Virus record (IMG/VR): IMGVR_UViG_3300010885_011255
Coordinates: 1-24,274 of that record
DNA length: 24,274 nt
Strand: one strand, 5' to 3'
Origin: a virus
Of the stretch, positions 2,092 to 18,746 are shown piece after piece; positions within the stretch are counted from its first letter, which is position 1; every line of letters begins with the position of its first letter. A program made the translations under genes and the position numbers. The notes beneath the pieces are model-generated. The model worked only from the letters and a program-made list of their open reading frames with translations. It had not been told where the DNA came from and searched no databases.

Positions 2092-4743
2092 CTAGCGAGC
2101 CCAGTTAACGCTTGAGCTGAGACCAGCAATATCGAAGGCACCACCAGCAGTGTGGCTTGGGGCCGCAGTTGGGATAAAGCCACGATTCATCAACATCGCG
2201 CGACTTCCATCTCCCTCGATGGGGATACCTCGGTCACGAAGTTTACGGAGCAGGGCAATCTGAGTCATGGCTCGTTCACCGCGAGATTCGCTCCACATGC
2301 GGTAGCGGAGGTACATGCTACTAATAGCAAGGTTGAGTCCAGGAGTCTCTTCCGTTTCCTCGACCAAGAACATTCCAATACGGTCCTCACTACGGCGATA
2401 CACATCTGAGGCTTGGTGCACAGCAGTACACCAACCAAGAGGGTCAATGTCCTTGGACCCCAAGTACTTTATTGCACCCTCGACAGCCCATGCCAGAATT
2501 GCAGGCATGCCACCCTCGGGATCGAACAAGAACTCCTTGAGCGTGGGATCAGCCACCGCAGGAACCTGCGACCACGGAATCGGACGAATACGACGCCACA
2601 TTGCATCGTCAGTAATGATTGGTCGGTGGTTGGTCGTGAGCCACAACTTGGCGTGCGACTGAAACGTAAACGGCTTCTCACCGGGAGAGCGCGCCGAGAT
2701 TTCAGACGAACCAGTCAACTTCTTGACTGCGTTCTCCTTGATACGCTCCGACTCAGGCAACTCGTCAACCCAGACCATACGACGACCACGGAGTTCAGCC
2801 CAGTGGTAGAGGTCGGTGTTGTTGGACTGTCCGTTGTCCTGAGCAAGAATAGTAGAGTCCATCGGCCACGCGTACTGCTGAGTTCCGAGGCACTTAACGA
2901 TTGCCTCGACAAAGGTGTTTTTACCCGACCCAGGGGGACCGTAAACAAGGAACATCACATCTTGTGTGTTGAGACCAGTGATTGTGTAGCCAACCGCACG
3001 CTGAATCCAGTCCTGAAGTTCCTTATCTCCGCCCGTAGCAAAGTCAACAAACTCAGTCCAACGGTTGTTGACTCGGCCTGGCTGGTAGGCAACAGGGCTA
3101 CGTCGCGTGATGTGGAGGTCGGGACGGCCCTTAAGGAGTTCTCCAGTCCGCAGGTCGACGACACCATTCTTGACACCGAGTAGGTGATCGTCGCTATCCC
3201 ACTCATCGACTGGCACAAAGACACGGGGGTCAGAGGTACAGCTGTCAATAGCTGAGTTAAGACGAGCGTTTGACTTAGTCTGCATAGCCCACTTCATGAC
3301 TTCTTGCTTCTTGTTGGGGTCGTCGTAGTGGATCACCTCACTGGCGATAGTCACAGAGACACGCTTCGCCAACTCACGCAACTCGAGGTTCTCAATGTCG
3401 TTTTTCCAGTGTGTCCCAGACCATGTGTACCAGCCAAGACCTGGAGTGTAGCGAACACCCTGACCAAAGTTGTCAACAATACGACGCCCATTCCCGACGT
3501 CGGTGAGCGAACGCTGTCCAGCAATTCCACCGTCCTCTGGGTTTACAGCATCGGGGTCCTTGGGAACATCGATGTTTCCCATAGTTGAAGCGCCCATGAT
3601 TGATTCACCGTTGTGGACACCGATGGAAACCATGCCACCAATAGTTCCGTCTAGTGAATAGTCGACGTCGTCGTCAGGATCACTAGTTGAGACGGAAGCC
3701 GTGCGCGAAAACGATGCTGAGGTATTTTGCGACCCACCAGCAATACGGGCAGCAGCCTCTTTCTCCCAGTCAGAGATTCCAGTCCAGCCCCGCGAGTGCT
3801 TGGGGTTGTTGTGTACAAAGTCAATAGCTCGACGGACGTGGCCGAGAAGTCCGGTCGCTCCTTCGAGTTCGAGTGGGGGACGAACCTTTTCATAGTTGAA
3901 ACGGATCATCATGTTTTCTACGGCCTGACGACCGAGCTCATCCTGAGGAAACTTGTTAGCAAGAGCACAGGACATGGCGTAGATAGTTACGGCACGCTCG
4001 CCCTCCTCAAGACCCTCCTCAAGAAGCTTGTCCACGTCAATGCGCTCGCCCTTAAACTCAAGACCGTCAAGAGCAGACCAGTCACCAGAGCCGAGGGACG
4101 TCGAGCTACGCATTGAAGCAGTACGACCACGCTTACGCAGAGTGTCGAGCAGTTCATCAGGGGCTTCGGCCATGTGGATTTCCCACGGAGCGTGGCCAGG
4201 CTTCCATCCATAGGACACACCTGAGATGTGATTAGAGGGGTGAAGCAAAACATAGCCGTTGTGCTTTATGTCAATACCGGGAAGCTTGGCCGCCCTAAGG
4301 TTGCCAATTAACTCTTCCTTGAACTCACACTTATAGAAGAGGTGCCGTCCGCGAAGGATCTGTCCCTTGTAGGTGTATTCACCAGTAATGGCTTCTACAG
4401 TCGGGGGGAGTGCCCCATTGACCAGTTCCTCAAACTTGAGGAACGATTCAAAGCCACCCGATCGAGGGTCAATGTCGACTACAAAAAAGCCGGAGTCCCG
4501 ACAGGCAACGCCGATGTTGTACCGGGATTCAGCACGCCACCACGACGAAATCTGATTGGGATCGGTTGTGGCCTGATTGGGCCAGTCGTAGATAGCGGGG
4601 TGCTTACCAATGTCCTTGGGGTCAGAGTGCTGACCACCACAGGTGCACCGACCACCCTCGGTCACCCCATGACAGGGAAGAATTTTCCAGCCTAACCCCG
4701 TGTACCACGAAGCCAGCTTTTCCAAATTTTGTTCGTCGCTCAC
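2092..4743 (-). CDS. Bifunctional primase-polymerase / SF3 replicative helicase
   Basis: The 883-residue protein starts at a GTG preceded by AGGA. Residues 1-215 match the PrimPol family: Cys/His pattern PCHG...RCTCGG...H (24-39), GKHP at 46-49, the metal-binding VVDIDPR at 88-94, GRHLFY at 132-137, and GYVLLHPSNH near 163-172. An all-helical region follows, then a Ser/Thr/Asp-rich linker (about 335-420). The C-terminal part is a D5/SF3-type helicase: Walker A GPPGSGKNT at 602-610, Walker B MVWVDE at 656-661, sensor-like LTTNHRP at 702-708, and Arg717-Arg718. The protein should synthesise primers and unwind DNA at the phage fork. Fusing both activities in one chain is well known in phages and plasmids. 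The gene diverges from the lysis island across a 198-base gap and leads a minus-strand unit with the glycosyltransferase and tail-fibre genes. Confidence 0.92.
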   Translation of the reverse strand: MSDEQNLEKLASWYTGLGWKILPCHGVTEGGRCTCGGQHSDPKDIGKHPAIYDWPNQATTDPNQISSWWRAESRYNIGVACRDSGFFVVDIDPRSGGFESFLKFEELVNGALPPTVEAITGEYTYKGQILRGRHLFYKCEFKEELIGNLRAAKLPGIDIKHNGYVLLHPSNHISGVSYGWKPGHAPWEIHMAEAPDELLDTLRKRGRTASMRSSTSLGSGDWSALDGLEFKGERIDVDKLLEEGLEEGERAVTIYAMSCALANKFPQDELGRQAVENMMIRFNYEKVRPPLELEGATGLLGHVRRAIDFVHNNPKHSRGWTGISDWEKEAAARIAGGSQNTSASFSRTASVSTSDPDDDVDYSLDGTIGGMVSIGVHNGESIMGASTMGNIDVPKDPDAVNPEDGGIAGQRSLTDVGNGRRIVDNFGQGVRYTPGLGWYTWSGTHWKNDIENLELRELAKRVSVTIASEVIHYDDPNKKQEVMKWAMQTKSNARLNSAIDSCTSDPRVFVPVDEWDSDDHLLGVKNGVVDLRTGELLKGRPDLHITRRSPVAYQPGRVNNRWTEFVDFATGGDKELQDWIQRAVGYTITGLNTQDVMFLVYGPPGSGKNTFVEAIVKCLGTQQYAWPMDSTILAQDNGQSNNTDLYHWAELRGRRMVWVDELPESERIKENAVKKLTGSSEISARSPGEKPFTFQSHAKLWLTTNHRPIITDDAMWRRIRPIPWSQVPAVADPTLKEFLFDPEGGMPAILAWAVEGAIKYLGSKDIDPLGWCTAVHQASDVYRRSEDRIGMFLVEETEETPGLNLAISSMYLRYRMWSESRGERAMTQIALLRKLRDRGIPIEGDGSRAMLMNRGFIPTAAPSHTAGGAFDIAGLSSSVNWAR

Positions 4744-4941: not shown

Positions 4942-5241
4942 ATGAAAGAAATCACCAAGAGCATTGTGCTCCGTTCCATCGGTATTGTGCTGATGACGTT
5001 TATCCCTGGAATGGGGATTGGCGCTGTCGCAGCTGGTGGAGACTGGATGATGGGTGGCATCATTGCCACTGGCACATCATTCGCAACCGTTATTATTTAC
5101 CTCGGTGTCGTACTTGCTTGGTCAGGCAACTGGTCCGCGACCGACGTTCAAACTGCATTCCGCGCCGCTGCATCTAAGGCTGCCGAAGGCAACGAAGACG
5201 TTCAGGCCGCACTCGACAACATTCAAGAAGACCAGAGATAA
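4942..5241 (+). CDS. Small two-helix membrane protein, holin candidate
   Basis: The 99-residue product has two hydrophobic segments, about residues 8-31 and 36-60, joined by a short turn containing AAGGDW. A soluble, charged helical tail (about 62-99) follows, rich in Ala, Glu and Asp. This size and topology fit phage holins, particularly the r1t-like group, which make the inner-membrane lesion that releases endolysin. Its place as first gene of a cluster containing an M23 endolysin supports that reading, but no diagnostic motif exists for holins. The Shine-Dalgarno site is poor (AGAAAG about 10 bases before the ATG), which could keep expression low. The next gene starts 13 bases after its stop. 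An alternative is an unrelated small membrane protein partnering the PA14 protein. Confidence 0.6.
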   Translation: MKEITKSIVLRSIGIVLMTFIPGMGIGAVAAGGDWMMGGIIATGTSFATVIIYLGVVLAWSGNWSATDVQTAFRAAASKAAEGNEDVQAALDNIQEDQR

Positions 5242-5254
5242 GTAAAAATATTCC

Positions 5255-6805
5255 ATGCGCTTACCGAGACAAGCGCTGGAAGTCGTAGCAACGACTAATG
5301 CGCTGATTGCTTCAATTCTTGGCGTTGTAGTGCTCCCACTTGTGCTACTGGCTTCTCCAGCATATTCATACCCCACTCCTCAGTCACAAGAGGAGTACAA
5401 CCGATATGTCCGTGAAGCCGACGCTAGAATTGAACAATCACGCGCAGATCTCGAGAGCGCTCAATCTAATCTGATTGACGCGTCTTTTGCTGTTGAATCC
5501 GCACAGACGCAGTTGGCTGAGTCCGAAAATCAACTGGCTCAGACCACGCTCAATCTGGCAATAGCGCAGGTGGCGTATGAGTCTGCTGTTGCTGAGTTAT
5601 CTACGGCTCAGAGCAATTACGACAACAATCTTATTCCCGACACCGAATCTCCAGGCGAAGAGCGGATTCCTGGCATACGCGCAGACATCTACAATCAACT
5701 ATCTGCCCCCAACCCCACCCGCGCAGACAATCTCTACAATCTCTGTAAGACGGTGACGTTCACGCACATCAACCATCAGTGGGGCGGTGGGAGTGTCGAA
5801 GGGTGTGGAAACGATTCTGTGATGATCCACTACACCGGATACCTTACGATCCCAGAGTCCACACCATACGGATATGACTTTCTCAACAACGCCGACGACG
5901 GCTGGTACATGACACTTGATGGAATGGTTATCAACGACAACTGGGTACTCAAAGGTTGTGGCGGTTGGTGGAGTCAGAAGTTTCACCTCGAGGCCGGACG
6001 TTCGTACCAACTTGACGCTTGGTACTATGAGTGGAGCGGTGGAGCGTGCTCGACGCTGTACTACGACAACGGGTACACCTGGGGAGTAATCCCAGCCAGC
6101 TGGTACTCGCAGAACGACTACGCCGAGATAACTTATATACACAATCCTGCGCTTCTGGCCATCCTCCAAGAAAAACAAGCCGTACAAAGTAGAGCATCGT
6201 CAAGTCTCTTAGTCGCCGAAGAAGGCTATACCTCGGCTCAAGACAGATATAACACAGCCTTAACTCTTACGGAGCAGACAGCTCAAGCTAAATCAGAAGC
6301 TGAAGTAGCCGTTCCTCCCCTCGAAGAAGCACTGCAAAACGCCTTGGATATGCGGGCTTCAATTCAGCCATACATTCCCTATGTAGAGCCAGAGCCAGAG
6401 CCAGAGCCAGAGCCAACTACAGAATCCACCCCAGAACCTTCCCCCGAACCTACAGTTAAGCCAACTGTAGAGCCAACTCCTCCGACCGAAGAAGAAGTCA
6501 TGGAGGAGTTGTGGGCGGAGGCAACAGCTGACGACATTGTCGTCTCAGAAGAACTTGCGGCCATTCCAGTCCTCGGTAGCGCGATCGTAGCACTGGCAGA
6601 TGCAATCAACTTTGTCGGCAACGTGGGTGCTGACATGTCTCCCGAGGTCCGCAAGCAATCTGAAAAAGTTGTTGTCTCCGCCATCATCGTTACGCAGATT
6701 GCTACGCAAGCTGCCGCCACTGCAACTATGGCTGCTACCACATCAGCGAGCGCCTCAGCCTCTTCAAAATCAGGATCATCGAGCACGGGAAGGAGGAAAC
6801 AATGA
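5255..6805 (+). CDS. Secreted coiled-coil protein with PA14 domain and proline-rich spacer
   Basis: The protein has 516 residues. Residues 1-38 form a signal peptide or N-terminal anchor (basic start, hydrophobic 18-33, ASPAYS before a possible cleavage). Residues 45-122 are a coiled coil. Residues about 150-290 match the PA14 beta-barrel: NNADDGWYMTLDGMVIND at 211-228 (the DDG...DG core), a Trp, then FHLEAGRSYQLDAWYYE (243-259) and a Cys-containing final strand. Four cysteines (164, 184, 235, 265) could make disulfides outside the membrane. A second coiled coil spans about 300-370, a Glu-Pro/Thr-Pro spacer 377-411, and the C-terminus has hydrophobic helices (about 434-456, 471-495) before a Ser-rich basic tail. 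PA14 domains in other proteins often bind carbohydrate. This suggests a cell-envelope or surface protein, but its role is unknown. Its stop overlaps the next start (ATGA). Confidence 0.82.
   Translation: MRLPRQALEVVATTNALIASILGVVVLPLVLLASPAYSYPTPQSQEEYNRYVREADARIEQSRADLESAQSNLIDASFAVESAQTQLAESENQLAQTTLNLAIAQVAYESAVAELSTAQSNYDNNLIPDTESPGEERIPGIRADIYNQLSAPNPTRADNLYNLCKTVTFTHINHQWGGGSVEGCGNDSVMIHYTGYLTIPESTPYGYDFLNNADDGWYMTLDGMVINDNWVLKGCGGWWSQKFHLEAGRSYQLDAWYYEWSGGACSTLYYDNGYTWGVIPASWYSQNDYAEITYIHNPALLAILQEKQAVQSRASSSLLVAEEGYTSAQDRYNTALTLTEQTAQAKSEAEVAVPPLEEALQNALDMRASIQPYIPYVEPEPEPEPEPTTESTPEPSPEPTVKPTVEPTPPTEEEVMEELWAEATADDIVVSEELAAIPVLGSAIVALADAINFVGNVGADMSPEVRKQSEKVVVSAIIVTQIATQAAATATMAATTSASASASSKSGSSSTGRRKQ
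6791..6797 (+). promoter_or_regulatory. Strong ribosome binding site for the 58-residue membrane protein
   Basis: AGGAGGA ends four bases before the ATG at 6802 and lies inside the last codons of the PA14 gene. It is the best Shine-Dalgarno match on this strand and supports a real gene too short for ordinary ORF calling. Confidence 0.8.
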
Positions 6806-6978
6806 AAGGTTTTTTAAACGACATTATTGGACAGCTTTGGACATTGCTTGGCATGTTTGTCGCTTGGGTTGTACTCGAAGGATCGGCTAAAGAAGTAGTC
6901 GGATGGTGCATTCTTGTGTCACTCTGCATCTGGATTGTCACTTACAGGCTTCGCAACCCTAAAGACGACGACAAGTAA
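6802..6978 (+). CDS. 58-residue two-helix membrane protein, second holin/antiholin candidate
   Basis: The frame starts at an ATG overlapping the stop of the PA14 gene (ATGA), with a near-perfect ribosome binding site, and ends at TAA 6976-6978. The product begins MKGFLND, has two strongly hydrophobic stretches (about residues 8-27 and 32-51) separated by the charged turn LEGSAKEVV, and ends RLRNPKDDDK. Two helices with a short charged tail just before the endolysin gene is a usual holin arrangement. Since another two-helix protein opens the island, one may be holin and the other antiholin, or one may work with the PA14 protein. No sequence motif distinguishes these. Translational coupling with the PA14 protein suggests linked dosage. 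The gene is well supported by start context and composition; its function is inferred. Confidence 0.75.
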   Translation: MKGFLNDIIGQLWTLLGMFVAWVVLEGSAKEVVGWCILVSLCIWIVTYRLRNPKDDDK

Positions 6979-7025: not shown

Positions 7026-7829
7026 ATGGCAAAAGCACAATATGCAATCGACGGAAAGCCTGGAAAAGCTTGGAAAGTTACGTCCACAATGGGCTGGCGC
7101 ATCCACCCCGTCACAAAAACTAAAAAACACCACAACGGCACTGACATCTGGGCCTCAGCAGAGCCTTGCTGGATTGAAGCACCATATGATGGTACAGTCC
7201 TTTACATTGGCAACAATCCCGCTGGTTTTGGAAATAGTGTTACGCTACTTCACAAAATTAAAGGCGATTGGTACACCACGCTGTATGCACATATGGCTGA
7301 TGGGTCAATCAAGGTAAAAAAGGGTCAGAAAATTGAAGCCGGAACCCCGCTCGGAAAAATGGGATCGACAGGTATGTCAACTGGTAAGCACCTCCACTGG
7401 GAGCTTCATAAAGGTAAGGTACACACCTGGAACGCAACTGGAGCAGGTTACATCGAACCAGTTAAGTTCTTTGATCACCTCATTGAGTGGGAAAAGTCAA
7501 TTGCCACTGCACCAGTAGAGACCCCGCCCGACGCACCTGTTGCACCAGCTCCAACGCACGACGATCAAGGCGCTGCTGAATTGGTAAAGACTGAGGCAGC
7601 AGTAGCTGTCGCAGCCGCCGTTGCAGCCCCAGCTACCCCCATATCTCGACCCGCAGTCAAGGTTGGATCAAAGGGAGTACACGTCAAGCATCTTCAAGAG
7701 AAACTCGGCATTACTGCTGATGGAGTCTTTGGCCCTGACACTAAGAAGCACGTCATGGAGTTTCAGGCTAAGCACGACCTTAAGGTTGACGGAACTGTTG
7801 GGCCAAACACATGGAAGGCTATCGGCTAA
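7026..7829 (+). CDS. Endolysin: M23 peptidase plus C-terminal peptidoglycan-binding domain
   Basis: The 267-residue enzyme should cleave peptide cross-bridges of peptidoglycan at lysis. Residues about 15-150 form a zinc metallopeptidase of the M23 (lysostaphin/LytM) type: HNGTD at 36-40 supplies the first His and Asp, His89 lies in LYAHM, and HLH at 122-124 supplies the third zinc ligand. An Ala/Pro-rich linker (about 160-208) follows. Residues 210-267 are a PG_binding_1 domain (VGSKGVHVKHLQEKLG, ADGVFGPDTK, VMEFQ, VDGTVGPNTW), a wall-binding three-helix fold. There is no signal peptide, so export would depend on a holin. AGGAAG precedes the ATG. All catalytic residues are present. The next gene starts after a three-base gap. 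Confidence 0.93.
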   Translation: MAKAQYAIDGKPGKAWKVTSTMGWRIHPVTKTKKHHNGTDIWASAEPCWIEAPYDGTVLYIGNNPAGFGNSVTLLHKIKGDWYTTLYAHMADGSIKVKKGQKIEAGTPLGKMGSTGMSTGKHLHWELHKGKVHTWNATGAGYIEPVKFFDHLIEWEKSIATAPVETPPDAPVAPAPTHDDQGAAELVKTEAAVAVAAAVAAPATPISRPAVKVGSKGVHVKHLQEKLGITADGVFGPDTKKHVMEFQAKHDLKVDGTVGPNTWKAIG

Positions 7830-7832
7830 CTA

Positions 7833-8255
7833 ATGTCCCCAGATCGCGACCCCACCCCCGGCGAGCTCCGAGTTATGCTCGAGCACATTACTCGTGTGCT
7901 TGAAACCATGCAAGCTCAAATGGCTACCCGTGAGTTTGTCAACCTCAAGTTCGACTCATACAACGAGCGCATCACGAGGGTGGAACGCGATCTTAAGGAT
8001 TCAGATATCGACAATGCCAAATCAGTCACGGAGTTGAAAAAAGACGTAGCCAGTCAGATCCGTGAGTCGGATATCGAGCGTCAATCAATGAGCGCCGATA
8101 TCCACTCGCGGATTGACGACATCATTGAAGACCAAAAAATACAGCGACGAACGATTGACGGACAGCGTCATAGCAAGAATCAGGCAATTGGTATTGCCGT
8201 CTTGGGAGCCGTCTTGAGCATCATTGTTGGTATCGTCACAAATATCTTCGTTTAA
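7833..8255 (+). CDS. Coiled-coil protein with C-terminal membrane anchor, XhlA-like
   Basis: This 140-residue protein has a long charged helical region (about 10-115) with heptad-like spacing, rich in Asp, Glu, Arg and Lys. One C-terminal hydrophobic segment, about 117-138 (IGIAVLGAVLSIIVGIVTNI), is followed by only a couple of residues. This coiled coil plus C-terminal anchor is the shape of the XhlA/haemolysin family that assists holins in several Gram-positive phages. Its position three bases after the endolysin stop supports a lysis role. A structural tether to the membrane is an alternative. The start is the ATG directly after the endolysin stop, with only weak ribosome-binding sequence. 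Assignment rests on topology and context, not on a catalytic motif. Confidence 0.6.
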   Translation: MSPDRDPTPGELRVMLEHITRVLETMQAQMATREFVNLKFDSYNERITRVERDLKDSDIDNAKSVTELKKDVASQIRESDIERQSMSADIHSRIDDIIEDQKIQRRTIDGQRHSKNQAIGIAVLGAVLSIIVGIVTNIFV

Positions 8256-8580: not shown

Positions 8581-9779
8581 TGAGCGACGAATTAAAAAAG
8601 ACCTTGGCTGACTTGGTTTCTCCCGGACAGAATGGTTCGGACATCAAGCAGACCGGAACTCCAGAGTCATGGCGTCCCCGCGTTGAGCTAGGACCCGATG
8701 GTGGGTTCATAATCTCTACCGCTAACGCCGAAGGTAACACCCCCGGTGCTGAAGAAATTCTGCGTGAGCGTGGCCTCGATCCTGCTGAGTGGATTGTGAC
8801 ATCTGTTCGTAAAGGATCGTGGCAGACTTTCCACGGAGACTGGCTGGAATCCGTTCGCGTCAATGTCACTCCTGCTCGAGGAGTTGTAGAGCGTGACTTT
8901 GATCTTGAAGATCTTGTTGACCACATTAGAACGTGGCGTCCCGGGAAGGGGATCAAGACTGCTACTGGCACCGGAGCCTACGCTCACGTCGGTGCTGACA
9001 AACAAATTGGTAAAAAGTCTGGCGCTGGCGGAACTAATCAGACTGTAGGTCGTATCCTTGAGGGGACTCGACGAAGCGTGGAACGATTTGAGGGGCTTCA
9101 GAAGATGGGTATCTCTATGGGAACCATTGTTCTTCCTGAACTTGGGGACCACGTCGAGGGAAATGTCTCTCAGAATGGACGTCTCCAAGGGCTGGCCTCA
9201 TCAGACCTCGGACAGACAGAGCAAGTACGCGTTGCTCGACGTCTCTTACTTCAGCAAATAAAAACATTTGCTCCTTACGCTGAACGACTGATTGTCCCTG
9301 TAGTCAACGGAAACCACGACGAGGTTACTCGTCAAGTGGCCGCCGACCCTGCTGACGGCTGGAACGTTGAGATTGCTTCGGCAGTTCAGGATGCCTGCGC
9401 CGAGAACCCTGCCCTGCAACACGTCGAGTTCCGATTCCCCGCCTCTGGACACCAGACACTTGTTACTGAAATCTGCGGAACTCACTTGGGAATGTTCCAC
9501 GGACACCAGTTCTCACGCGACGTAGAGAAGTATCTCAACGGACAGGCCATGGGCCAGACAGCTCTAGGCGGTGCAGACCTTTGGATTAGTGGACACTATC
9601 ACCACTTTAAGTCACAGGACGTTGGGTCCCGTCTCTGGGTACAGGCTCCGACAGTGGATCCTGGCTCGGACTGGTATCGCGATCGAACAGGAGCATCCTC
9701 GCGTCCCGGCTTCTTGACGCTTGTCTTCGGTGGAGACTACGATCCTCGGGAGTTTATCAGTATTCTTGCAGTGGACTAA
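8580..9779 (+). CDS. Calcineurin-like metallophosphoesterase (possible nuclease)
   Basis: The preferred start is the ATG overlapping the preceding stop, giving 399 residues. The N-terminal third (about 1-125) is a separate domain with many charged residues. The rest has the metallophosphoesterase signature in order: ADKQIGK (D-x-Q where D-x-H is usual), LGDHVEGN, GNHDE, FHGHQF and SGHYHH, which together supply a dimetal site. Family members include SbcD/Mre11 nucleases and nucleotide phosphatases; nothing here separates these options, though a nuclease or phosphodiesterase acting on nucleic acid fits a phage. Upstream coupling to an HTH-like protein hints at action on DNA. It ends tail to tail with the WhiB gene, with a 3-base overlap (9777-9779). 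The fold is secure; the substrate is not. Confidence 0.87.
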   Translation: MSDELKKTLADLVSPGQNGSDIKQTGTPESWRPRVELGPDGGFIISTANAEGNTPGAEEILRERGLDPAEWIVTSVRKGSWQTFHGDWLESVRVNVTPARGVVERDFDLEDLVDHIRTWRPGKGIKTATGTGAYAHVGADKQIGKKSGAGGTNQTVGRILEGTRRSVERFEGLQKMGISMGTIVLPELGDHVEGNVSQNGRLQGLASSDLGQTEQVRVARRLLLQQIKTFAPYAERLIVPVVNGNHDEVTRQVAADPADGWNVEIASAVQDACAENPALQHVEFRFPASGHQTLVTEICGTHLGMFHGHQFSRDVEKYLNGQAMGQTALGGADLWISGHYHHFKSQDVGSRLWVQAPTVDPGSDWYRDRTGASSRPGFLTLVFGGDYDPREFISILAVD

Positions 9780-10237
9780 CTTAGTCCATACTGCGAACGG
9801 TAGCCATCGACTGAGTTTGCGCTGGTTCTACTGATCCACGTAAACGCACAACGTGAGCAGGTTACCGTTCGTCTTACTGTCCACCGTCCTCCACCAGGAA
9901 TATCAATCTGTCCGGTGTGAAGAAACTCTGTATCAGCGTTGCAATAAAGGCAGTACGGAGCTTCGCCCTTCTTAGTTCGACGTACTTCGCGCTCGTCTTC
10001 TGTGAGACAGAGCACATCACGAATTTCGTCTTGTGACGCTCCACCCCAGACTCCCCAAATCTCTCGATTATTGAGGGCCTTAGAGAGACACTTTTTTCTG
10101 ACAGGGCACGACATACAGAGAGTCTTGGCTTGCTCGACCTCGTCCTCATTGTCTGAGAAGAAAAAGTTTATCTTCGACTTATTGCTCTCCTGAGCACACG
10201 CAGCTTCATCTAACCATTCTTGTTCTTCATCAGACAT
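9776..10237 (-). CDS. WhiB-family iron-sulfur regulator fused to a C-terminal zinc ribbon
   Basis: The start chosen is the ATG at 10237, which overlaps the stop of the preceding gene by eight bases; a TTG at 10246 is the alternative. The 153-residue protein carries the Wbl iron-sulfur ligands Cys14, Cys41, Cys44, Cys50 (C...CxxCxxxxxC) and the turn GVWGG at 62-66. Wbl proteins bind a 4Fe-4S cluster and usually act with the primary sigma factor to alter transcription. A phage copy could redirect host RNA polymerase. Unlike typical 80-130-residue Wbl proteins, a second module follows: CLYC at 96-99 and CSRC at 127-130, a probable zinc ribbon with beta strands between. This extra domain might add DNA or RNA polymerase contacts. 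It is the last gene of its minus-strand unit. Confidence 0.9.
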   Translation of the reverse strand: MSDEEQEWLDEAACAQESNKSKINFFFSDNEDEVEQAKTLCMSCPVRKKCLSKALNNREIWGVWGGASQDEIRDVLCLTEDEREVRRTKKGEAPYCLYCNADTEFLHTGQIDIPGGGRWTVRRTVTCSRCAFTWISRTSANSVDGYRSQYGLS

Positions 10238-10559
10238 CAAGTCCAACCCATGTTCCTACTAAAATTGTGTCCACTAGATCTCCTCGAGGAGTCCATCCTT
10301 CGTGGTCACATATTTGTGGCTCATCGTCACCATCGACGTAGCCGAAATAACCTTTGTAAATATTTATGATGTCAACTACGCGGTATGCTTCACCAAGTCC
10401 ATCAACGAGCCCACTTCGCTGCACGGCTGAGACAAGCCCACCAAACACCGTCTCGTGATCGACGTCAACAAACTCTTCTGTATAATAGATTACTCGATGA
10501 TGAAGAGGGCAGTGATGGCCGCTCCACTCCATCCAGAGCACTTCACCGCGACGTTCCAA
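10230..10559 (-). CDS. Hypothetical protein, 109 residues, start uncertain
   Basis: I do not recognise this family. The frame runs from a TTG directly after the preceding stop (TAGTTG) to TGA at 10230-10232; a GTG at 10541 or ATG at 10532 are possible later starts. The product has a His/Cys-rich beginning (GHHCPLHHRVIYY), a central region with alternating hydrophobic residues suggestive of beta strands, and an acidic segment VDGDDEPQICDHEGW. Histidines and cysteines near residues 15-21 might bind a metal. It abuts the 142-residue gene and overlaps the WhiB start, so the three are probably one translationally linked set. Coding status is supported by this tight packing and the lack of any other explanation for the stretch. 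Confidence 0.6.
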   Translation of the reverse strand: MERRGEVLWMEWSGHHCPLHHRVIYYTEEFVDVDHETVFGGLVSAVQRSGLVDGLGEAYRVVDIINIYKGYFGYVDGDDEPQICDHEGWTPRGDLVDTILVGTWVGLDV

Positions 10560-10988
10560 CTAGACCACACGCTTCTCGAGCTTGCTCGGCGGGAGGTGGA
10601 CGCCATCAAGCAGAGGCTTACGGTCGTCGTCCGATCGGAACACAATGTCTCCATAGCGAATTCCGACAATCTTTCCGCGTCTTCCGTTGAGGCGTACTCC
10701 TTGATCGCCTGTAAACGCATCTGACTTGACGCGGATTAGGTCGGCAACCTTGAGGTCTCCCGGACGAGCGTCTACCCAAATCTCGTCTTTATACGGCTCT
10801 AGTACCGAGTGGCTCTGCGCGAGGTGTTTGAACAGGGTCAAGCCCTCTTCAATCTGTGCCGGGGTCAGCGCATCTGTGGCAATACCGTCCCATGCCTTTA
10901 ACAGCGCGACAGTTAATTTACCCACAGGGATACGAACTTTGGCTCCTGCCATTTGTTCGTCTACCCAAGAAAAGTCTACTTTAGACAT
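10560..10988 (-). CDS. Hypothetical protein with beta-rich C-terminal domain
   Basis: The 142-residue product starts at an ATG with a good AGGAG site four bases upstream. The first 60 residues are helical (VGKLTVALLKAWDGIATDAL, then PAQIEEGLTLFKHL). The second half looks like a small beta barrel: GDLKVADLIRVKSDAF, RLNGRRGKIVGIRYGDIVFR, ending in PPSKLEKRVV. The pattern of basic-Gly-Lys followed by beta strands resembles KOW/SH3-like nucleic-acid-binding barrels, but this is only a visual resemblance. It is the first gene after the terminator/promoter at 11013-11057, so it heads its own unit with the next unknown gene and WhiB. Confidence 0.7.
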   Translation of the reverse strand: MSKVDFSWVDEQMAGAKVRIPVGKLTVALLKAWDGIATDALTPAQIEEGLTLFKHLAQSHSVLEPYKDEIWVDARPGDLKVADLIRVKSDAFTGDQGVRLNGRRGKIVGIRYGDIVFRSDDDRKPLLDGVHLPPSKLEKRVV

Positions 10989-11012
10989 TGTTCTCCTAAG
11001 TTAAAGTGTACT

Positions 11013-11021
11013 TCTATTCTA
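11013..11021 (-). promoter_or_regulatory. Promoter-like TAGAATAGA for the WhiB unit
   Basis: On the minus strand TAGAAT (11016-11021) is followed by AGA, identical over nine bases to the site at 18344-18352. Transcription starting six to eight bases downstream would leave a leader of about 20 bases that includes the AGGAG site of the 142-residue gene. It begins only seven bases after the terminator stem, so the terminator occupies the -35 region. Confidence 0.5.
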
Positions 11022-11057
11022 CAACAAAATAGACCCAAACTCAGCGTTTGGGCCTAT
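11022..11057 (-). terminator. Rho-independent terminator after the DUF669-like gene
   Basis: Read on the minus strand, ATAGGCCCAAAC (11046-11057) pairs with GTTTGGGTCTAT (11029-11040) around the loop GCTGA. This is a 12-bp stem with one G-U pair, followed by the T-rich TTTGTTG. On the plus strand the same position is an A-C mismatch and no T-run follows, so termination is expected for minus-strand transcription only. It ends the long replication unit 16 bases after the stop at 11073. Confidence 0.75.
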
Positions 11058-11072
11058 CTTGTTGCTCACCGA

Positions 11073-11681
11073 TTAGAAAGGAGCGGAGGGGAGTGCACCA
11101 GGAATGGGGGGTGCACCAACCGGAGCAGCAACAGCTGGGGCGGGGGGAGCCACAGGAGCGCTGACAACGGGAGCAAGAGCCGGAGCAGGAGCGGCCACAG
11201 GGGGCGCAAAAGCAACGGCGGGGGCGGGCGCAGACACAGGAGCTGCGACGGTAGTCGCAACACCGGGCTGTGTCGAGATCGGGTAGAACATCTGGATCTC
11301 GTTGTTGATTTTACCCTGGTAGTCAGCCTGAGTGACCTGACCACGGAATGAACGACCAATCATGGCACGAGCAATCGTGTCAACGTCGGGGTTCTGAGCA
11401 AAAAACTCTTGGGTGAGTCCGAGTGCGCCCATCTTGCGAAAGAACATACCAAGAGCGGTAGGGTTCTCCGTGACGAGGACAAGGTTGTTCCACACACGAC
11501 GACGTGCGTGAGGGCCATCAATCACCTCAGTGGTGATCTTCCACATATCGCGGCCACTCTGGGCTTTCTTATATGAGGCTTCCTTGATGGTGAGGTTGTA
11601 GTCTCCTACGGGGAGGGGCTCAAAGGATGTACCGCTTTCAGCGGCTTCCTTAATTATTTCTCCCCAGTTGATCTGTGTCAC
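11073..11681 (-). CDS. DUF669-like putative single-stranded DNA-binding/recombination protein
   Basis: The 202-residue protein starts at GTG with AAGGAG five bases before it. Residues 1-135 match the DUF669 pattern: an N-terminal helix, FEPLPVGDYNLTIKEA (about 20-35), WKITTEVIDGPHARRRVWNNLVL (split across about 47-69), a helical part with GALGL, and GRSFRGQVTQADYQGKINNEI (about 109-129) as the closing beta strands. This family sits beside Sak4-like ATPases in many phages and is thought to bind single-stranded DNA. From about 140 a low-complexity tail of Ala, Pro and Val runs to a terminal Phe; SSB proteins often use a terminal Phe to dock partners, but the acidic residues usual there are absent. 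It is the last gene before the terminator. Confidence 0.72.
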   Translation of the reverse strand: MTQINWGEIIKEAAESGTSFEPLPVGDYNLTIKEASYKKAQSGRDMWKITTEVIDGPHARRRVWNNLVLVTENPTALGMFFRKMGALGLTQEFFAQNPDVDTIARAMIGRSFRGQVTQADYQGKINNEIQMFYPISTQPGVATTVAAPVSAPAPAVAFAPPVAAPAPALAPVVSAPVAPPAPAVAAPVGAPPIPGALPSAPF

Positions 11682-11707
11682 TTTATCTCCTTAGTAATCG
11701 GTTCTTG

Positions 11708-12463
11708 TTACTGGTCCGCACTCGGCTGAGTACGGGGTCCGAAAATCAAGTCTAGCATACGCTCTACTCCGAGGTCACCCTGTTCAACAATTGAACCGAG
11801 TCGGCCTTGTACGCGCTCGCCTGCTTCAAACTTTTCCGTGCGCTCAACGTACAGACGGCGAACCTTGTACGGTGGTTGCATGGGATCGGGATTCGGGAAT
11901 GTCTCGTTAGACAGGTATCCAAGGATATCGTAGAAGTACGGTGCCTGAGTTTTGAGCTGTCCTTGGAGGTAAGGGTGCATAACACCTTCACGCTCCTGAG
12001 CCATTGCCGTGAGAACGACAGCCTCGAGAGGTGCCGTCGGGTGCGAGGTGAGGTCACGAACGTCGCGGAGGAATGCTCCCATACGACGCAGGATTTCGCC
12101 CCACTGCTGCATCTTGACCGCATCCTGTCCTGCAATGTCGGTCATGTACTTGTCCTGCAACTCCGAGATGGAGTCAATAATCAGGGACTTGAACTGGTGC
12201 TTACCAGCCTGAAGCCACTGATAGGCCTTGAGCACAACGTGGAGGTCGCGAACGATCACAACGCAGGTGTCCCAAGTTCCGTCAGCCACCGGGGGTTCTT
12301 CCCGCATAGGGTCCCAGTATTTGACGTTGATGGGAAGGAAGCGGTGGCCGCCCTCCACATCGAGCATGAGACGGGGGTATGGTGCTGTGACGGCAAAAGT
12401 GGACTTACCCACCTTTGACGCGCCATAGATCATCATCGTCAGAGAGCGCTGAATATCAGACAC
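11708..12463 (-). CDS. Sak4-like RecA-fold ATPase (AAA_24), single-strand annealing/recombination
   Basis: The 251-residue protein begins at a GTG that overlaps the previous stop by one base (TAGTG), after AAAGG. Walker A is GASKVGKST at 14-22. LMLDVEGGHR at 32-41 follows, and the Walker B-like strand SLIIDSISEL is at 93-102 with Asp97. The region EVVLTAMAQEREGV (near residues 150-165) fits the RecA core. Size, motif spacing and context match phage Sak4-like ATPases, which are single-domain RecA paralogues implicated in annealing with a partner SSB-like protein, here probably the DUF669-like product just downstream. It lacks the DNA-binding extensions of full RecA. A DnaB-type helicase is unlikely because the chain is too short. 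Confidence 0.8.
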   Translation of the reverse strand: MSDIQRSLTMMIYGASKVGKSTFAVTAPYPRLMLDVEGGHRFLPINVKYWDPMREEPPVADGTWDTCVVIVRDLHVVLKAYQWLQAGKHQFKSLIIDSISELQDKYMTDIAGQDAVKMQQWGEILRRMGAFLRDVRDLTSHPTAPLEAVVLTAMAQEREGVMHPYLQGQLKTQAPYFYDILGYLSNETFPNPDPMQPPYKVRRLYVERTEKFEAGERVQGRLGSIVEQGDLGVERMLDLIFGPRTQPSADQ

Positions 12464-13398
12464 TATTCACTACCTTTCGGGTCGTCTTTTCCGTAATATG
12501 CATACGGGTCTGCAGCTTCGTAGCCCATTTCCAAAGCTGACTCTGCGGCACTTCCATCATCGATGAGAGGGCAGATAGCAAAGAATTCGCACTTCCACTT
12601 GCAGTCCCGGTTCGGACGAGGATAGGCCACTGCAAAGTGACTTTCGCCGTTGTCCAAAGCATCTTTAGTTCTTATCAAATCTGATACTACACCATGAAGT
12701 CGCTGCCAGAAGGCTCGCAACGTGTATACATTGTGTCGTACTTCGAATTGATCGTAGAACGGTGGCTTTGCGGTAGCAGTGCGCTTTACCTTCTTGAGGA
12801 GGGTAAAGAGACCACCTTCGCTTCGCTCATCCGTTCCCTCGTTCTGGGCATTCTCCAAGAGCATGTAAGTAAGAATTTGCTCATTCATGTGAGCAGTCTC
12901 GCCAAACTGAGTGAACGATCCGCCCACCGTCTTGAAATCGCGGAACATACGAACACCATCCGCCTTACGGCGAACTCGCATATCCAGTTTTCCTTGAAGT
13001 TCAACGCTACCGTCAAACATCGGCATGGTCAGGATCTCTTCCGTCGAGATAAACTCGAGGTCAGCGTCGATTCCTTCCTCCTCAACCCAGTCAAGGTAGC
13101 CTTCGAGCATGATACGACCAAGGTCGGCTTCTGTCTCGAAGTCGCTTGTGAACTCCGTCTGGGCCTCGACGAGCTTACGCTCCTCGTGAACAAGGCCAGC
13201 GTAGATGTCGAGAAGCGGAGAGTCAGTCGAGTAGTACTGATCCAGTGCCTCGTGGACACGAGATCCAAGAGCCAAGGGGCCGCTGTACTTCTTCTGCTTT
13301 GGCTTCAGACGTCGGTAGTAGGCCAGCCACCATTTACGGCGACAGTCCTTATACGTCTGAATCTCCGAGTTGGAGAGCGTGTAGGTTCCTTCTGTCAT
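12463..13398 (-). CDS. RecB/Cas4-like PD-(D/E)XK nuclease with iron-sulfur cysteines
   Basis: The 311-residue product has the RecB-family nuclease core: SNSEIQTYKDCRRKWW at 9-24, the helix with GSRVHE (His49), the strand GKLDMRV with Asp139, DFKT with Asp154 and Lys156, and the QxxxY motif (Gln174, Tyr178). Four cysteines, Cys19 and Cys266, Cys270, Cys276 (CKWKCEFFAIC), have the arrangement that holds a 4Fe-4S cluster in Cas4 and AddB proteins. The enzyme should trim DNA ends, producing single strands for annealing by the adjacent Sak4-like and DUF669-like proteins. There is no CRISPR array or cas gene here, so an adaptation role is not supported. AAGGGA lies eight bases before the ATG. All expected motifs are intact. 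Confidence 0.86.
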   Translation of the reverse strand: MTEGTYTLSNSEIQTYKDCRRKWWLAYYRRLKPKQKKYSGPLALGSRVHEALDQYYSTDSPLLDIYAGLVHEERKLVEAQTEFTSDFETEADLGRIMLEGYLDWVEEEGIDADLEFISTEEILTMPMFDGSVELQGKLDMRVRRKADGVRMFRDFKTVGGSFTQFGETAHMNEQILTYMLLENAQNEGTDERSEGGLFTLLKKVKRTATAKPPFYDQFEVRHNVYTLRAFWQRLHGVVSDLIRTKDALDNGESHFAVAYPRPNRDCKWKCEFFAICPLIDDGSAAESALEMGYEAADPYAYYGKDDPKGSE

Positions 13399-13410
13399 TT
13401 TGTAATTCCC

Positions 13411-13539
13411 TTATTTAGGAGGTGCCGGAACAAGTCGACGCTTTTCAGCATCGAACTGCTTGGGGTGTTTCTTAAATCCTTTACCATTCTGACGGTCGTT
13501 GTTACGAACGCCAGAAGACTTTCCTCTTTTTTTAGCCAC
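13411..13539 (-). CDS. 42-residue basic protein, unknown
   Basis: This short frame starts at GTG 13539, four bases after the SNF2 helicase stop, with AGGAGGGG upstream inside the helicase's last codons, and ends at TAA 13411-13413. The product begins VAKKRGKSSGVRNNDR and ends RRLVPAPPK. About a third of its residues are Lys or Arg and it has no hydrophobic core, so it is probably disordered until bound to nucleic acid or a partner. A longer reading from 13599 would overlap the helicase deeply and is not preferred. Position between helicase and nuclease suggests a small accessory to replication or repair. Function cannot be assigned. Confidence 0.6.
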   Translation of the reverse strand: MAKKRGKSSGVRNNDRQNGKGFKKHPKQFDAEKRRLVPAPPK

Positions 13540-13543
13540 GGCT

Positions 13544-15331
13544 TTACCCCTCCTTGAGCATCTTAAGAAGTTGCTCTTTGTCTTTGACGATCTGTTCAAA
13601 ATTGTCGGATTTTGATTCTAGCACGTCAACCACGCGTTCCTGCACAGTTCCGCCAGTGACATAGTCGGTAATAATGATTGAGTCGTGAATCTCAGAACCA
13701 ATACGGTGAACGCGGTCATTGACCTGTCGATCATCAACGAGAGACCACGGACGTTGCAGACGAATGAGTCGACGAGCTGCCGTCAGGGTCACTCCAACGC
13801 CCCCTGCTTGGGCCGTAAAGAGTATCCACTTAGTGCGCCCAGACTGGAAGTCGTCGATAGCGTACTGTCGCTCATCGCCACTCTGAGCCCCTGTGATAAG
13901 GCCATGAGCAATGCCTTCCTTGGTGAGACGAGCACTGAGTAAGTAAATCAACTGCCGAGATACAGCAGAGACAGCAACCGAATCTTCACCAAAGTCACCG
14001 TTCTTGATATCGTCCATCAAGGCATCAATTGTGCACGACGGCTCTGAGAGGATCACGCGCTCTTCGCCCGAGTTCTCATCAATCTCGATGGTAGCGTATG
14101 CACTCGAGAGCTGGAGGAGACGAAGAGTCTGAGTCAGGACCGAGGGAGCAGTAACAACGCCACCGTCCTCAATCTCGGCAATCATCTGCTCTTTCATATC
14201 CTTGTAAGCTTTTTTCTGCTTGGGTGACATCTCAACATCCCGACGGTCAACAATGACTTCGGGGAGCCACGGAAGCACAACCTGCTTGAGCATACGGCGC
14301 ATACGCGGATTGATTGAGGCATAGAACTCATCCTCCATCTGTGGCTTTACACCGAGAACCATCATCCCGCCGAAAGCATTGAACATGGTATCTACCATGC
14401 GGTCAATCCAGCGAGTACGGCTCGGGAATTCAGTTGGGGCAAGCCAGTGGTAGATTGGCCACAGGTCAACAACATCTTTGGCAATCGGAGTTCCGGTAAG
14501 TGCAAATCGAATATCTGCGTTGCCCGACGCCGACCATAGGGCACGAGTCTGCTTTGACTTGGGGTCTTTGGATCGGTGGATTTCATCCGCGACCACAGCC
14601 TTGAAGTCAATAGAGTTGAGCTCGCGTGGGTGAACCTCACAACGGCTTTCGGTCATAGAGCCGTTCTCTCCGCCACACGCTTTACAGCGAGCTAGCGAGA
14701 CCGAGCCATAGGGAGCCAAGCGCGAGTGTGTGCGGAGGCTTTCCCAGTTAATGACATAGACCTGAGCAGGCTCTTCGAACTGCTTGCGACGCTGTACAGC
14801 CGTACCGCCAATGATGGTCACGTCTACACCTGGCCACCACCTGTCAAACTCGCGTTCCCAGTTTTTCTTGAGGGTATTGGGGCAGACAATCAAGGCAGGA
14901 AATACATCCCCTCCCCGATCGTGAAGTTTCTTGATAGCGCGAATAGCCTGTGCAGTCTTGCCGAGTCCAGGCTCGTCGGCCAACAACGCCTGACGTGCGG
15001 TAATCAAGAACTCAACACCAGCACGCTGGTGGGGGAACAGGTCGGCATCGCCCTCGTCTGAGGCGGTAAGTTCACGCAGTGCATTAGCAGGATCGATACG
15101 ACTAGTTCGCTCATCTGTTGCCCACTGCGCCAGTCCCGGACCAATTGCAAGGGCATCTCGGAACGTAGAGCGCAGGGCAAGGCAGCCAGACCACGAAACG
15201 GGCATACGCCACACATCGCTCTTAGAGTCCCATGTCGCACCAGGAATCGTCTTACACAGCTCCTTGAAACGCCACTCGGCGCTAATAAGAATTTGTGTGC
15301 GCTCCTCGTTCAGTTCGACATTAATCGTCAT
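13544..15331 (-). CDS. SNF2/DEAD-like superfamily 2 helicase
   Basis: The 595-residue ATPase starts at an ATG overlapping the stop of the RuvC-like gene (ATGA). Residues 1-75 form a beta-alpha domain resembling the HARP-type module of SMARCAL1-like annealing helicases (ATWDSKSDVWRMP near 32-44). Motif I is DEPGLGKT at 119-126, motif II DEIH at 249-252, motif III LTGTP at 278-282. The C-terminal RecA lobe has the SNF2 motifs (GAQSGDERQ, AGGVGVTLTAA, and QVNDRVHRIG). A Cys/His cluster CKACG...CEVH at 216-234 sits inside the first lobe and may bind zinc. Such phage proteins are thought to remodel forks or anneal strands. It groups with resolvase and nuclease genes, consistent with recombination-dependent replication. 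Confidence 0.88.
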   Translation of the reverse strand: MTINVELNEERTQILISAEWRFKELCKTIPGATWDSKSDVWRMPVSWSGCLALRSTFRDALAIGPGLAQWATDERTSRIDPANALRELTASDEGDADLFPHQRAGVEFLITARQALLADEPGLGKTAQAIRAIKKLHDRGGDVFPALIVCPNTLKKNWEREFDRWWPGVDVTIIGGTAVQRRKQFEEPAQVYVINWESLRTHSRLAPYGSVSLARCKACGGENGSMTESRCEVHPRELNSIDFKAVVADEIHRSKDPKSKQTRALWSASGNADIRFALTGTPIAKDVVDLWPIYHWLAPTEFPSRTRWIDRMVDTMFNAFGGMMVLGVKPQMEDEFYASINPRMRRMLKQVVLPWLPEVIVDRRDVEMSPKQKKAYKDMKEQMIAEIEDGGVVTAPSVLTQTLRLLQLSSAYATIEIDENSGEERVILSEPSCTIDALMDDIKNGDFGEDSVAVSAVSRQLIYLLSARLTKEGIAHGLITGAQSGDERQYAIDDFQSGRTKWILFTAQAGGVGVTLTAARRLIRLQRPWSLVDDRQVNDRVHRIGSEIHDSIIITDYVTGGTVQERVVDVLESKSDNFEQIVKDKEQLLKMLKEG

Positions 15332-15804
15332 TCGTTATTTCCTTTTCTGAGTAGTGGTAAAAAATTCCACTTCTCCTGTTGTACCACATAAAGTAGCGCA
15401 TGTCGAATTGCATCGAGGGCGTGCCCAGCACCTCCTCGGTACCAGTAGCCCATGGTCTTGATCTTGGCATTAGGGAACATGCTCATTGCATTGGCAGGAA
15501 GTTGATACTTCAGCTCTTCGGGGTCGCGGCCATAGTACATCATGACCGCCTTGAGAACACCGATACACTCGAGGCTGTATGGAGCCTGAGACTTTTTAGC
15601 CGTCTGCACATTAATTGTGAATTTTTCGCAGACAATCTCAAGATCGTCTCCGTACGTCACGAACAGCTGATGAAGCTTTTGGTAGTAGTCAAACATCTCC
15701 AGCTCGTCGGCCCAGATTAGCTGCGGGTCGCCCCCCTTTTCAAAGGCAGCGAGCGCCATGCCCGTTGTCTTTCCGGGGTCTACTGCCAGCACAAACTTAG
15801 GCAT
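15328..15804 (-). CDS. RuvC-like Holliday junction resolvase (RNase H fold)
   Basis: The start preferred is the ATG at 15804, overlapping the polymerase stop by eight bases; an upstream TTG at 15828 would add eight residues. The 158-residue chain shows the RuvC-like catalytic set: LAVDPGKTTG with Asp9, IVCEKF with Glu60, and GHALDAIRHAL with His128 and Asp131. The order and spacing fit a RuvC fold that cuts branched DNA with two metal ions. In a phage this would resolve replication and recombination intermediates before packaging. The length is near that of bacterial RuvC. It overlaps the helicase downstream (ATGA), so the two are likely co-translated. Confidence 0.82.
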   Translation of the reverse strand: MPKFVLAVDPGKTTGMALAAFEKGGDPQLIWADELEMFDYYQKLHQLFVTYGDDLEIVCEKFTINVQTAKKSQAPYSLECIGVLKAVMMYYGRDPEELKYQLPANAMSMFPNAKIKTMGYWYRGGAGHALDAIRHALLYVVQQEKWNFLPLLRKGNNE

Positions 15805-17638: not shown

Positions 17639-17870
17639 CTAGTAAATCTCCTTCGTCGTTTTCGTCGTCTAAATCTTCTAGGTCTTCAGTGTACTGGATA
17701 TCCTCGTCCGACACAAGTGGACGGTCCATCATCTGATCGTACAAGATGTGACCAATAATTTCGTTAGAGTCCTTGGATGAGAACCCTTGACGCTGTAATT
17801 CTTGGTGAAGCTCGTGCATTTCAACCAGCAACATTTGTAGGGGGCTGTGTTGAAAGTCTGGGTTTATCAC
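17604..17870 (-). CDS. 88-residue protein with acidic tail, unknown
   Basis: The gene starts at GTG 17870, overlapping the preceding stop (GTGA), and ends 35 bases inside the polymerase gene. Residues 1-50 are helical (LQMLLVEMHELHQELQRQG). From about 54 the chain becomes strongly acidic, with long runs of Asp and Glu (LEDLDDENDEGDLLDDDDP) before ERPL. Acidic tails of this kind can imitate DNA or dock onto basic replication proteins, but I see no family motif. Dense overlap with both neighbours suggests co-expression with DNA polymerase, possibly as an accessory. Function is unknown. Confidence 0.68.
   Translation of the reverse strand: MINPDFQHSPLQMLLVEMHELHQELQRQGFSSKDSNEIIGHILYDQMMDRPLVSDEDIQYTEDLEDLDDENDEGDLLDDDDPSGERPL
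17648..17652 (-). promoter_or_regulatory. Ribosome binding site fixing the polymerase start
   Basis: AGGAG on the minus strand lies nine bases before the ATG at 17638, inside the acidic-tail gene. It supports independent initiation of DNA polymerase despite the 35-base gene overlap. Confidence 0.75.
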
Positions 17871-18337
17871 GGGATGCGCTCTATTCTGTAGATAGATTCT
17901 ATACGAGAGTCGTTGTGTGATGCCGACTCAAGCAGTCGCTGTGCGACCTTAGTCAGATATCGCGCACCTCCTTCATCATACTTGTAGAGAGCTTCGAGGA
18001 CCGCCTGCGGCTCGTCGCTGACTTGGGCCCAGTATCGGTTCTTTTCAGGGAATACGAGCTGAGCCTCTGGGCTCGGCAGACACTCAGGGCATTCGAGAGA
18101 GTCAACATCAATGTCGCTCCACTCAACCTCGGTCAGACCATAGCGGGACACCAAGGTACATGAAGCTGTATGATAAACCTTTGATCGGCCAATGCGCGAA
18201 AGGATGTAGGCTCCGCTTCCGGTCTGGTAGAGCTTGAACTCGATCCACCGAATAGAGTCACCGCGCCGAGAGGTAGATTCGCCAAGAAGACGCCCCTCGA
18301 ACTCGAGGGTACGCGGCCCGTCTTTTACGTAGTACAT
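17867..18337 (-). CDS. Hypothetical protein with a His/Cys metal-binding pattern
   Basis: The 156-residue product heads the replication unit. Residues 1-55 look beta-rich (FEGRLLGEST, IRWIEFKLYQ, YILSRIGRSKVYHT). A pattern YHTASC...ECPEC (His56, Cys60, Cys83, Cys86) is a likely zinc site of treble-clef or ribbon type. Residues 95-156 are helical (QAVLEALYKYDEGGARYLTKVAQRLLESAS). I do not recognise the family. A promoter-like TAGAAT ends only nine bases before the ATG, so the transcript may be nearly leaderless; a GAGGG lies in the same interval. As first gene of the unit that continues into DNA polymerase, it may be an early regulator, but that is inference. Confidence 0.72.
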   Translation of the reverse strand: MYYVKDGPRTLEFEGRLLGESTSRRGDSIRWIEFKLYQTGSGAYILSRIGRSKVYHTASCTLVSRYGLTEVEWSDIDVDSLECPECLPSPEAQLVFPEKNRYWAQVSDEPQAVLEALYKYDEGGARYLTKVAQRLLESASHNDSRIESIYRIERIP

Positions 18338-18343
18338 TGTCCC

Positions 18344-18352
18344 TCTATTCTA
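18344..18352 (-). promoter_or_regulatory. Promoter-like TAGAATAGA for the replication unit
   Basis: The minus-strand TAGAAT (18347-18352) followed by AGA is identical over nine bases to the site at 11013-11021. It lies in the 67-base gap between the tail genes and the replication unit. The box ends nine bases before the ATG at 18337, so the mRNA leader would be only a few bases or absent. No -35 hexamer or terminator is evident in the gap. Confidence 0.5.
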
Positions 18353-18404
18353 TCATTTTTATGGAACAACAGTGTGAGTGTTAGGTCTACCTAGGCAATA
18401 GAAT

Positions 18405-18740: not shown

Positions 18741-18746
18741 TTTTCC

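Follow-up and report, generated by a model that had tools for sequence, protein, structure and literature searches.

A possible two-gene surface-display unit with exchangeable ectodomains beside the lysis genes of probable freshwater actinophages

The window, by which we mean the whole stretch of DNA analysed here, is a virus record of 24.3 kb. For its DNA polymerase, the nearest relative is that of Actinomycetia phage DSL-LC01 (69%), a metagenome-assembled lake phage (PMC10611076), followed by those of Microbacterium phages, which makes a freshwater actinobacterium the most likely host. The lysis cassette forms a plus-strand island amid minus-strand replication genes at 2092-4743 and 9776-23823, among them a primase-helicase, an SNF2-type helicase and a DNA polymerase A. 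A promoter and terminator scan gave matches no commoner than those in shuffled sequences. On the plus strand, ORF calling places three genes exactly where the original prediction had them: hol1 (4942-5241), whose 99-aa holin-like product has two hydrophobic segments by hydropathy and was followed with an iterated HMM; a gene for an exported 516-aa protein (5255-6805), called the CT protein here after its C-terminal (CT) module; and mem2 (6802-6978), encoding a 58-aa two-helix membrane protein. The stop/start coupling claimed for the last two genes is present as an ATGA overlap (6802-6805). After 48 nt, mem2 is followed on the same strand by an endolysin that combines an M23 and a peptidoglycan-binding domain (7026-7829; Pfam PF01551, 9e-24, and PF01471, 2e-12) and then by a gene for a 140-aa coiled-coil protein with one C-terminal transmembrane segment by hydropathy (7833-8255), which is probably a further membrane protein of the lysis cassette.

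The signal-like N terminus that had been noticed in the 516-aa protein consists of a 19-residue stretch with a mean hydropathy of 2.65 followed by SPAYS, and close relatives show SPAYA or SPAFA at this position. We assign aa 1-38 (5255-5368) as a signal peptide of the non-lipoprotein type, with cleavage likely after SPAYS. A hydrophobic N-terminal 12-mer occurs in 81 of 104 family members, compared with 55 of 534 control ORFs. The structure of the protein was predicted with AlphaFold from an alignment with 31 relatives. Behind the signal-peptide helix, the model has a long helix at aa 45-124 (5387-5626; pLDDT 81-90), a confidently predicted beta-sandwich head at aa 125-296 (5627-6142; block pLDDT mostly 83-97), a second long helix at aa 298-369 (6146-6361; pLDDT 75-90), a disordered linker rich in Glu-Pro (aa 378-409, 6386-6481; pLDDT below 50 at 384-406) and C-terminal helices of low confidence. 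The two coiled coils, the Glu-Pro spacer and the hydrophobic C-terminal helices of the original prediction can all be recognized in this arrangement. The two long helices flank the head in the sequence, and we infer that they form an antiparallel stalk.

The head had been read as a four-cysteine PA14 domain. At 21.4 bits (E=2e-4), the Pfam match in the window protein misses the 24-bit cut-off, which PA14 matches in its relatives exceed. A phmmer search matched the protein to the anti-sigma factor RsgI3 (E=3.7e-12), and a Foldseek search of the head retrieved PA14 sugar-binding domains at ~1e-9, with matches between 1e-9 and 1e-7 that include yeast adhesins, sugar-bound PA14, Flo and Epa domains and the PA14 domain of an ice adhesin. 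The RsgI3 match together with the predicted fold confirmed the PA14 domain, and judged by the model the closest solved relatives of the protein are PA14 sugar-binding proteins. All four cysteines (C164, C184, C235 and C265) lie inside the PA14 region, as does a D214-D215 pair within an ADDGWYM motif. This pair falls in the part of the domain where PA14 lectins hold calcium, and is a candidate calcium/sugar site only. We attribute a whole-protein PHROG match to a tape measure protein (E=0.003) to coiled-coil bias and set it aside.

Relatives were collected using the 516-aa protein and the M23 lysin as queries, and what most of them have in common with the window protein is confined to its last ~92 residues. 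This CT module, defined by iterated HMM and alignments (aa 410-501 in the window, 6482-6757), forms the end of proteins that range from roughly 270 to 1280 aa, with mem2 directly downstream of it. By sequence, the defining unit is therefore this ~92-aa module plus mem2 and not PA14. Among loci with 1.2 kb of flank, taken from viral contigs and one bacterial chromosome, CT is followed by mem2 in 165/165 and mem2 is preceded by CT in 165/165; these loci include some contigs fetched twice, and the distinct CT+mem2 pairs number 150, in 35 clusters at 70% identity. The search for linkage in related phages that had been proposed at the outset thus finds the two-helix gene behind every CT protein with sufficient flank, an arrangement conserved far beyond chance, and the outcome named there as refuting, a PA14 gene that mostly lacks membrane genes at its flanks, did not occur. 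Most CT/mem2 junctions measure -4, -1 or 0 nt, which indicates translational coupling. In one group of relatives a gene for a 135-138-aa protein sits between the CT gene and mem2 (L009:11881-12297, L047:9114-9530, L055:3386-3802, L056:9032-9439 and L092:3419-3829).

Within the CT module, the motif N-x3-N-x-G-x-D-x2-P-x2-R lies between two hydrophobic helices, and its invariant residues include N55, N59, G61, D63, P66 and R69 (numbering of the aligned segment). A hydrophobic helix follows the motif in 98% of members and a basic C-terminal tail is present in 136 of 138, as expected from sequence for a C-terminal membrane anchor. The partner is likewise well conserved: mem2 carries the sequence QxWTLLGM...AWxVLEGSAK, has a mean pairwise identity of 64%, and is modelled as two helices (2-26 and 29-51, pLDDT 83). 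Used as a query, it retrieved at least 589 stretches in viral contigs of one database, and it occurs once per large contig. Neither CT nor mem2 belongs to a named family in Pfam, PHROG or NCBIfam; mem2 has no Pfam match above cut-off, and none of 24 members matches any PHROG family. Neither mem2 nor a CT consensus gave a tblastn match in 50,697 phage records, a CT profile search of the PDB returned nothing, and no Foldseek match of mem2 was significant, the best being an uncharacterised protein of an uncultured phage. The expectation of an undescribed conserved small system at this locus is borne out by the CT-mem2 pair.

We determined the genomic setting of the unit from an unbiased set of 49 loci retrieved with mem2 that have 3 kb on both sides, counting same-strand genes up to 3.5 kb away. 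A lysin, M23 or CHAP, is near mem2 in 43 of these loci and a hol1 relative in 41; both are present in 40 and neither in five. The endolysin type switches while CT and mem2 stay constant. Conversely, 26 of the 32 M23 loci with long flanks have mem2 inside the fetched stretch, and for one of the other six (L044) it lies just outside, on the same contig as L151. The suggested link to membrane genes and an M23 lysin is therefore well founded, with CHAP lysins as an alternative. The two flanking two-helix genes of the original prediction are both present, but they belong to different families and do not form a symmetric pair: mem2 is the obligate partner, whereas hol1, whose family counts 135 ORFs in related loci by iterated HMM, recurs in related lysis cassettes at varying position. 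In these loci, the members of phrog_26427 (L127:9535-9774 and L022:7626-7877) likewise prove to be small membrane proteins of the hol1 type encoded in lysis cassettes, and the label 'nuclease' of that family looks like a misannotation. In CHAP-type cassettes, a 650-740-aa protein and a gene for a 64-74-aa protein with a transmembrane segment and a coiled coil are regularly found upstream of the unit; the larger protein is represented by L127:5883-7910 (phrog_11667, no assigned function), with equivalents in L106, L126, L132, L134, L156 and L163.

Lysis is the usual setting of CT-mem2, not a requirement. The unit adjoins terminase genes in two loci (L173 and L174) and ribonucleotide reductase genes in another (L022). 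In addition, a freshwater bacterial genome, an acMicro-4 MAG, harbours CT and mem2 (L095:9003-10165), here with a lipoprotein signal as well as a Glu-Pro linker, placed between a tRNA-Thr/MFS transporter region and a sugar PTS operon. This MAG was the only match when genome contigs were scanned with mem2, and among 400 genomes of its family it alone matched strongly; a second genome matched at E=1e-4 within a 612-aa frame, probably by chance. A search for attachment repeats around the chromosomal pair found none, and the pair is as likely to be a phage-derived remnant as a cellular version of the unit.

In contrast to the constant CT-mem2 pair, the ectodomains vary. PA14 is present in 14 of 31 diverse members, and the rest carry fibronectin type III or nothing recognisable. 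Ectodomain similarity is undetectable in 60 of 160 pairs with a CT identity of 80-90% and in 147 of 308 pairs at 70-80%. This variability rules out PA14 as the defining part; it is one of several exchangeable ectodomains, and the one present in the window. Among large contigs, PA14 was matched in 11 of 18, with a single match each. Positions were checked in four of them (G407, G411, G415 and G417), and there the match falls at most ~2.5 kb from mem2; with its sole PA14 match near mem2, such a phage lacks a PA14 tail protein that the ectodomain could mimic. The SEC10/PgrA model (TIGR04320), which represents coiled-coil surface proteins of Gram-positive mobile elements, is matched by 8 of 31 members (best E 9.8e-15). 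The window protein reaches 20.5 bits, below the 70-bit cut-off, and this match (aa 53-124) is confined to the stalk helix.

In one clade, the ectodomain gene ends just before CT, and CT continues in a different frame. The CT frame is -1 in 42 of 42 such split loci (38 contigs), and every one of the 42 has a phased X_XXY_YYZ heptamer (CCCAAAA, TTTAAAA or AAAAAAA), with the 0-frame stop following after 0 or 3 nt, compared with 8 of 1041 control ORFs (0.8%). A stem-loop begins about six nt after the heptamer. Its stability, assessed against synonymous shuffles that preserve the protein, has a mean z of -2.79, with 33 of 34 loci below -1; L154, with AAAAAAA, shows no excess stability. The stem arms co-vary (CCCCCAA/TTGGGGG, CCCAAC/GTTGGG and CCCAGC/GCTGGG). 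The common frame offset and the phased heptamers rule out assembly or sequencing error as the origin of the 42 split loci, and this clade seems to use programmed -1 ribosomal frameshifting. The signature lies at the ectodomain/CT junction (L103, L104, L105, L107, L114, L145, L154 and L177-L218), and the clade arose once in the CT+mem2 tree. Because signal peptides are present on 19 of 19 inspected ectodomains of the clade and CT is in the -1 frame, the 0-frame product would be secreted and the shifted product anchored. One further split gene (L003) is alone in having an in-frame TAG (3276-3278), which opens the Glu-Pro linker and separates the ectodomain from CT in the same frame; with a poly-C run nearby, this is possibly a sequencing error. 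The window lies outside the clade, and frameshifting is ruled out there, as its gene is fused and 5255-6805 contains no canonical heptamer.

Starting from the CT-mem2 linkage, the lysis-cassette location, the variability of the ectodomains, the PA14 fold and the frameshift signature, all of which are read from sequence, we propose a two-gene surface-display unit of freshwater actinophages; the membrane complex, its display, timing, glycan target and purpose are what the proposal adds. The first gene would encode an exported protein with a variable ectodomain, in the window a lectin-like PA14 head on a helical stalk, ending in CT, and the second, translated by stop/start coupling, would supply mem2 as the dedicated partner of CT. 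mem2 may hold or assemble CT in the cytoplasmic membrane, where the CT helix would halt with its basic tail inside, and the stalk and linker would carry the head into or beyond the cell wall. Since the unit usually belongs to a lysis cassette, with its genes beside holin and endolysin, expression is probably late in infection. In the frameshift clade, the -1 shift would balance secreted against anchored ectodomain. The likeliest purpose would be the occupation or masking of glycans on the infected cell, perhaps also on its debris after lysis, which would spare further phages and the phage's own progeny unproductive adsorption. Of the roles suggested for the window protein in the original prediction, the surface lectin fits best.

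We consider the anatomy of the display unit very probable. The whole proposal, glycan masking included, we advance tentatively and rate at somewhat under an even chance. Several points count against it: the place in the lysis cassette implies expression that is late for classical superinfection exclusion, the large contigs with a single PA14 match offer no tail protein of this type for mimicry, the ectodomains are not all PA14, and the CT part of the model has low confidence. A fuller version, a system common among freshwater actinophages in which an exchangeable and often glycan-binding domain sits in a universal CT-mem2 socket, frameshifting sets the shares of soluble decoy and anchored form, and masking (or an external signal) is coordinated with lysis, is more tentative still.

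The strongest rival is a lysis-control complex, in which mem2 and the CT helices would be part of a holin/antiholin and the ectodomain an external sensor or a tether to the wall. It would fit the 40 of 49 loci with hol1 and M23 or CHAP lysins beside the unit, and mem2, small, with two transmembrane helices in its model and adjoining the endolysin, resembles a holin in shape and position; moreover, the PA14 sequence that comes closest belongs to the sensor of a transmembrane anti-sigma factor. Nevertheless, most cassettes already have a separate holin-like gene, mem2 with its 64% mean identity is unusually conserved, unlike the holin-like proteins of actinobacteriophage lysis cassettes, described as highly variable (PMC9671378), and the unit also stands by terminase genes or in a bacterial chromosome that has no lysis genes around it. 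We regard this reading as unlikely. Similarity of the fold to Flo/Epa adhesins and to the ice-adhesin PA14 domain, the long stalk, and the existence of secreted and anchored forms would also suit an adhesin or tether, a displayed and secreted lectin that binds cells, particles or debris and keeps progeny near hosts or clumps cells. The members that match SEC10/PgrA, a surface-exclusion model of surface and aggregation proteins, point the same way, although the window protein is below the cut-off and this similarity may be coiled-coil bias. With planktonic hosts clumping is unlikely, and we find an adhesin distinctly improbable.

The pair in the acMicro-4 chromosome, with its lipoprotein signal, raises the question of whether a cellular surface module was taken up as a moron, with a role apart from infection timing such as a change of the host or lysogen envelope. 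One strongly matching bacterial genome stands against the viral stretches retrieved with mem2, and the chromosomal copy may equally derive from a phage, so we give this origin a small probability. It is very unlikely that the protein is a fibre or decoration of the virion that lies by chance at the end of the tail genes. Many relatives do have the 650-740-aa phage protein and the small transmembrane gene before the unit, and virion proteins of other phages carry carbohydrate-binding modules. In addition, phage coat and tail proteins with frameshift-added C-terminal domains are known (PMC5009743). A protein assembled in the cytoplasm, however, would hardly be expected to have four to five cysteines, to end in a hydrophobic anchor or to depend on an obligate partner in the membrane, nor to bear a signal peptide, as most members and all those inspected in the frameshift clade do. 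The spanin-like role that had been considered is unsupported: spanins are membrane-fusion pairs with an outer-membrane or lipoprotein partner in Gram-negative hosts, the relatives here point to actinobacterial hosts, the signal peptide is not of the lipoprotein type, and spanin-family matches stay within noise (Rz-like, for hol1, E=0.24). The unit is also found away from lysins, with neither a lysin nor hol1 nearby in five of 49 loci, and in one bacterial chromosome.

Several known systems resemble parts of the unit. The PA14 carbohydrate-binding domains of MpAFP, RsgI3 and Flo/Epa share the fold and the exported ectodomain, and RsgI3 the sequence match, but here the helical stalk ends in CT with a dedicated membrane partner, and binding is predicted only. 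'Cryophage', a Bacteroidetes phage, encodes variable cargo sorted by the T9SS, including a PA14 protein, for which superinfection exclusion or competition was suggested (PMC7468147). The likeness is that a phage encodes secreted proteins whose C-terminal sorting domain is conserved while the cargo varies; the T9SS, however, is confined to the Bacteroidetes superphylum and thus unavailable here, where the protein has its own small partner, strict two-gene linkage, a place in the lysis cassette and, in one clade, probable frameshift-controlled anchoring. In tailed phages, frameshifting near the gene end appends optional C-terminal modules, examples being Ig-like domains and the coat and tail proteins of T3, A2, A118 and PSA (PMC5009743), whereas in our loci an exported base protein would gain a predicted membrane anchor, and the shift would decide between secretion and anchoring. 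Ebola virus likewise makes a soluble and a transmembrane glycoprotein from one gene by transcript slippage (PMC5009743), but there the polymerase of an RNA virus slips, and no homology exists. Lysis cassettes of actinobacteriophages cluster the endolysin with several small transmembrane genes, the holin-like proteins being highly variable; in our loci, CT-mem2 is constant and the lysin changes, and PA14 goes unmentioned in that account (PMC9671378). A search of the open-access literature found no PA14 proteins in freshwater actinophages or lysis cassettes. Surface proteins encoded by phages are already known, and so are C-terminal domains added by frameshifting (PMC5009743); a universal two-gene anchor with exchangeable heads, usually placed in lysis cassettes and with anchoring set by a frameshift, was not found in the family libraries and open-access literature searched.

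Freshwater actinobacteria are abundant lake bacteria, and their closest phages are known mainly through metagenomes. If the proposal is true, a variable head on a universal socket would be a general rule for the way these phages reshape the infected cell's surface, and CT-mem2 would provide a sequence handle for recognising such surface proteins. It would also be a rare case of a DNA phage in which frameshifting picks between a secreted and a membrane-anchored product.
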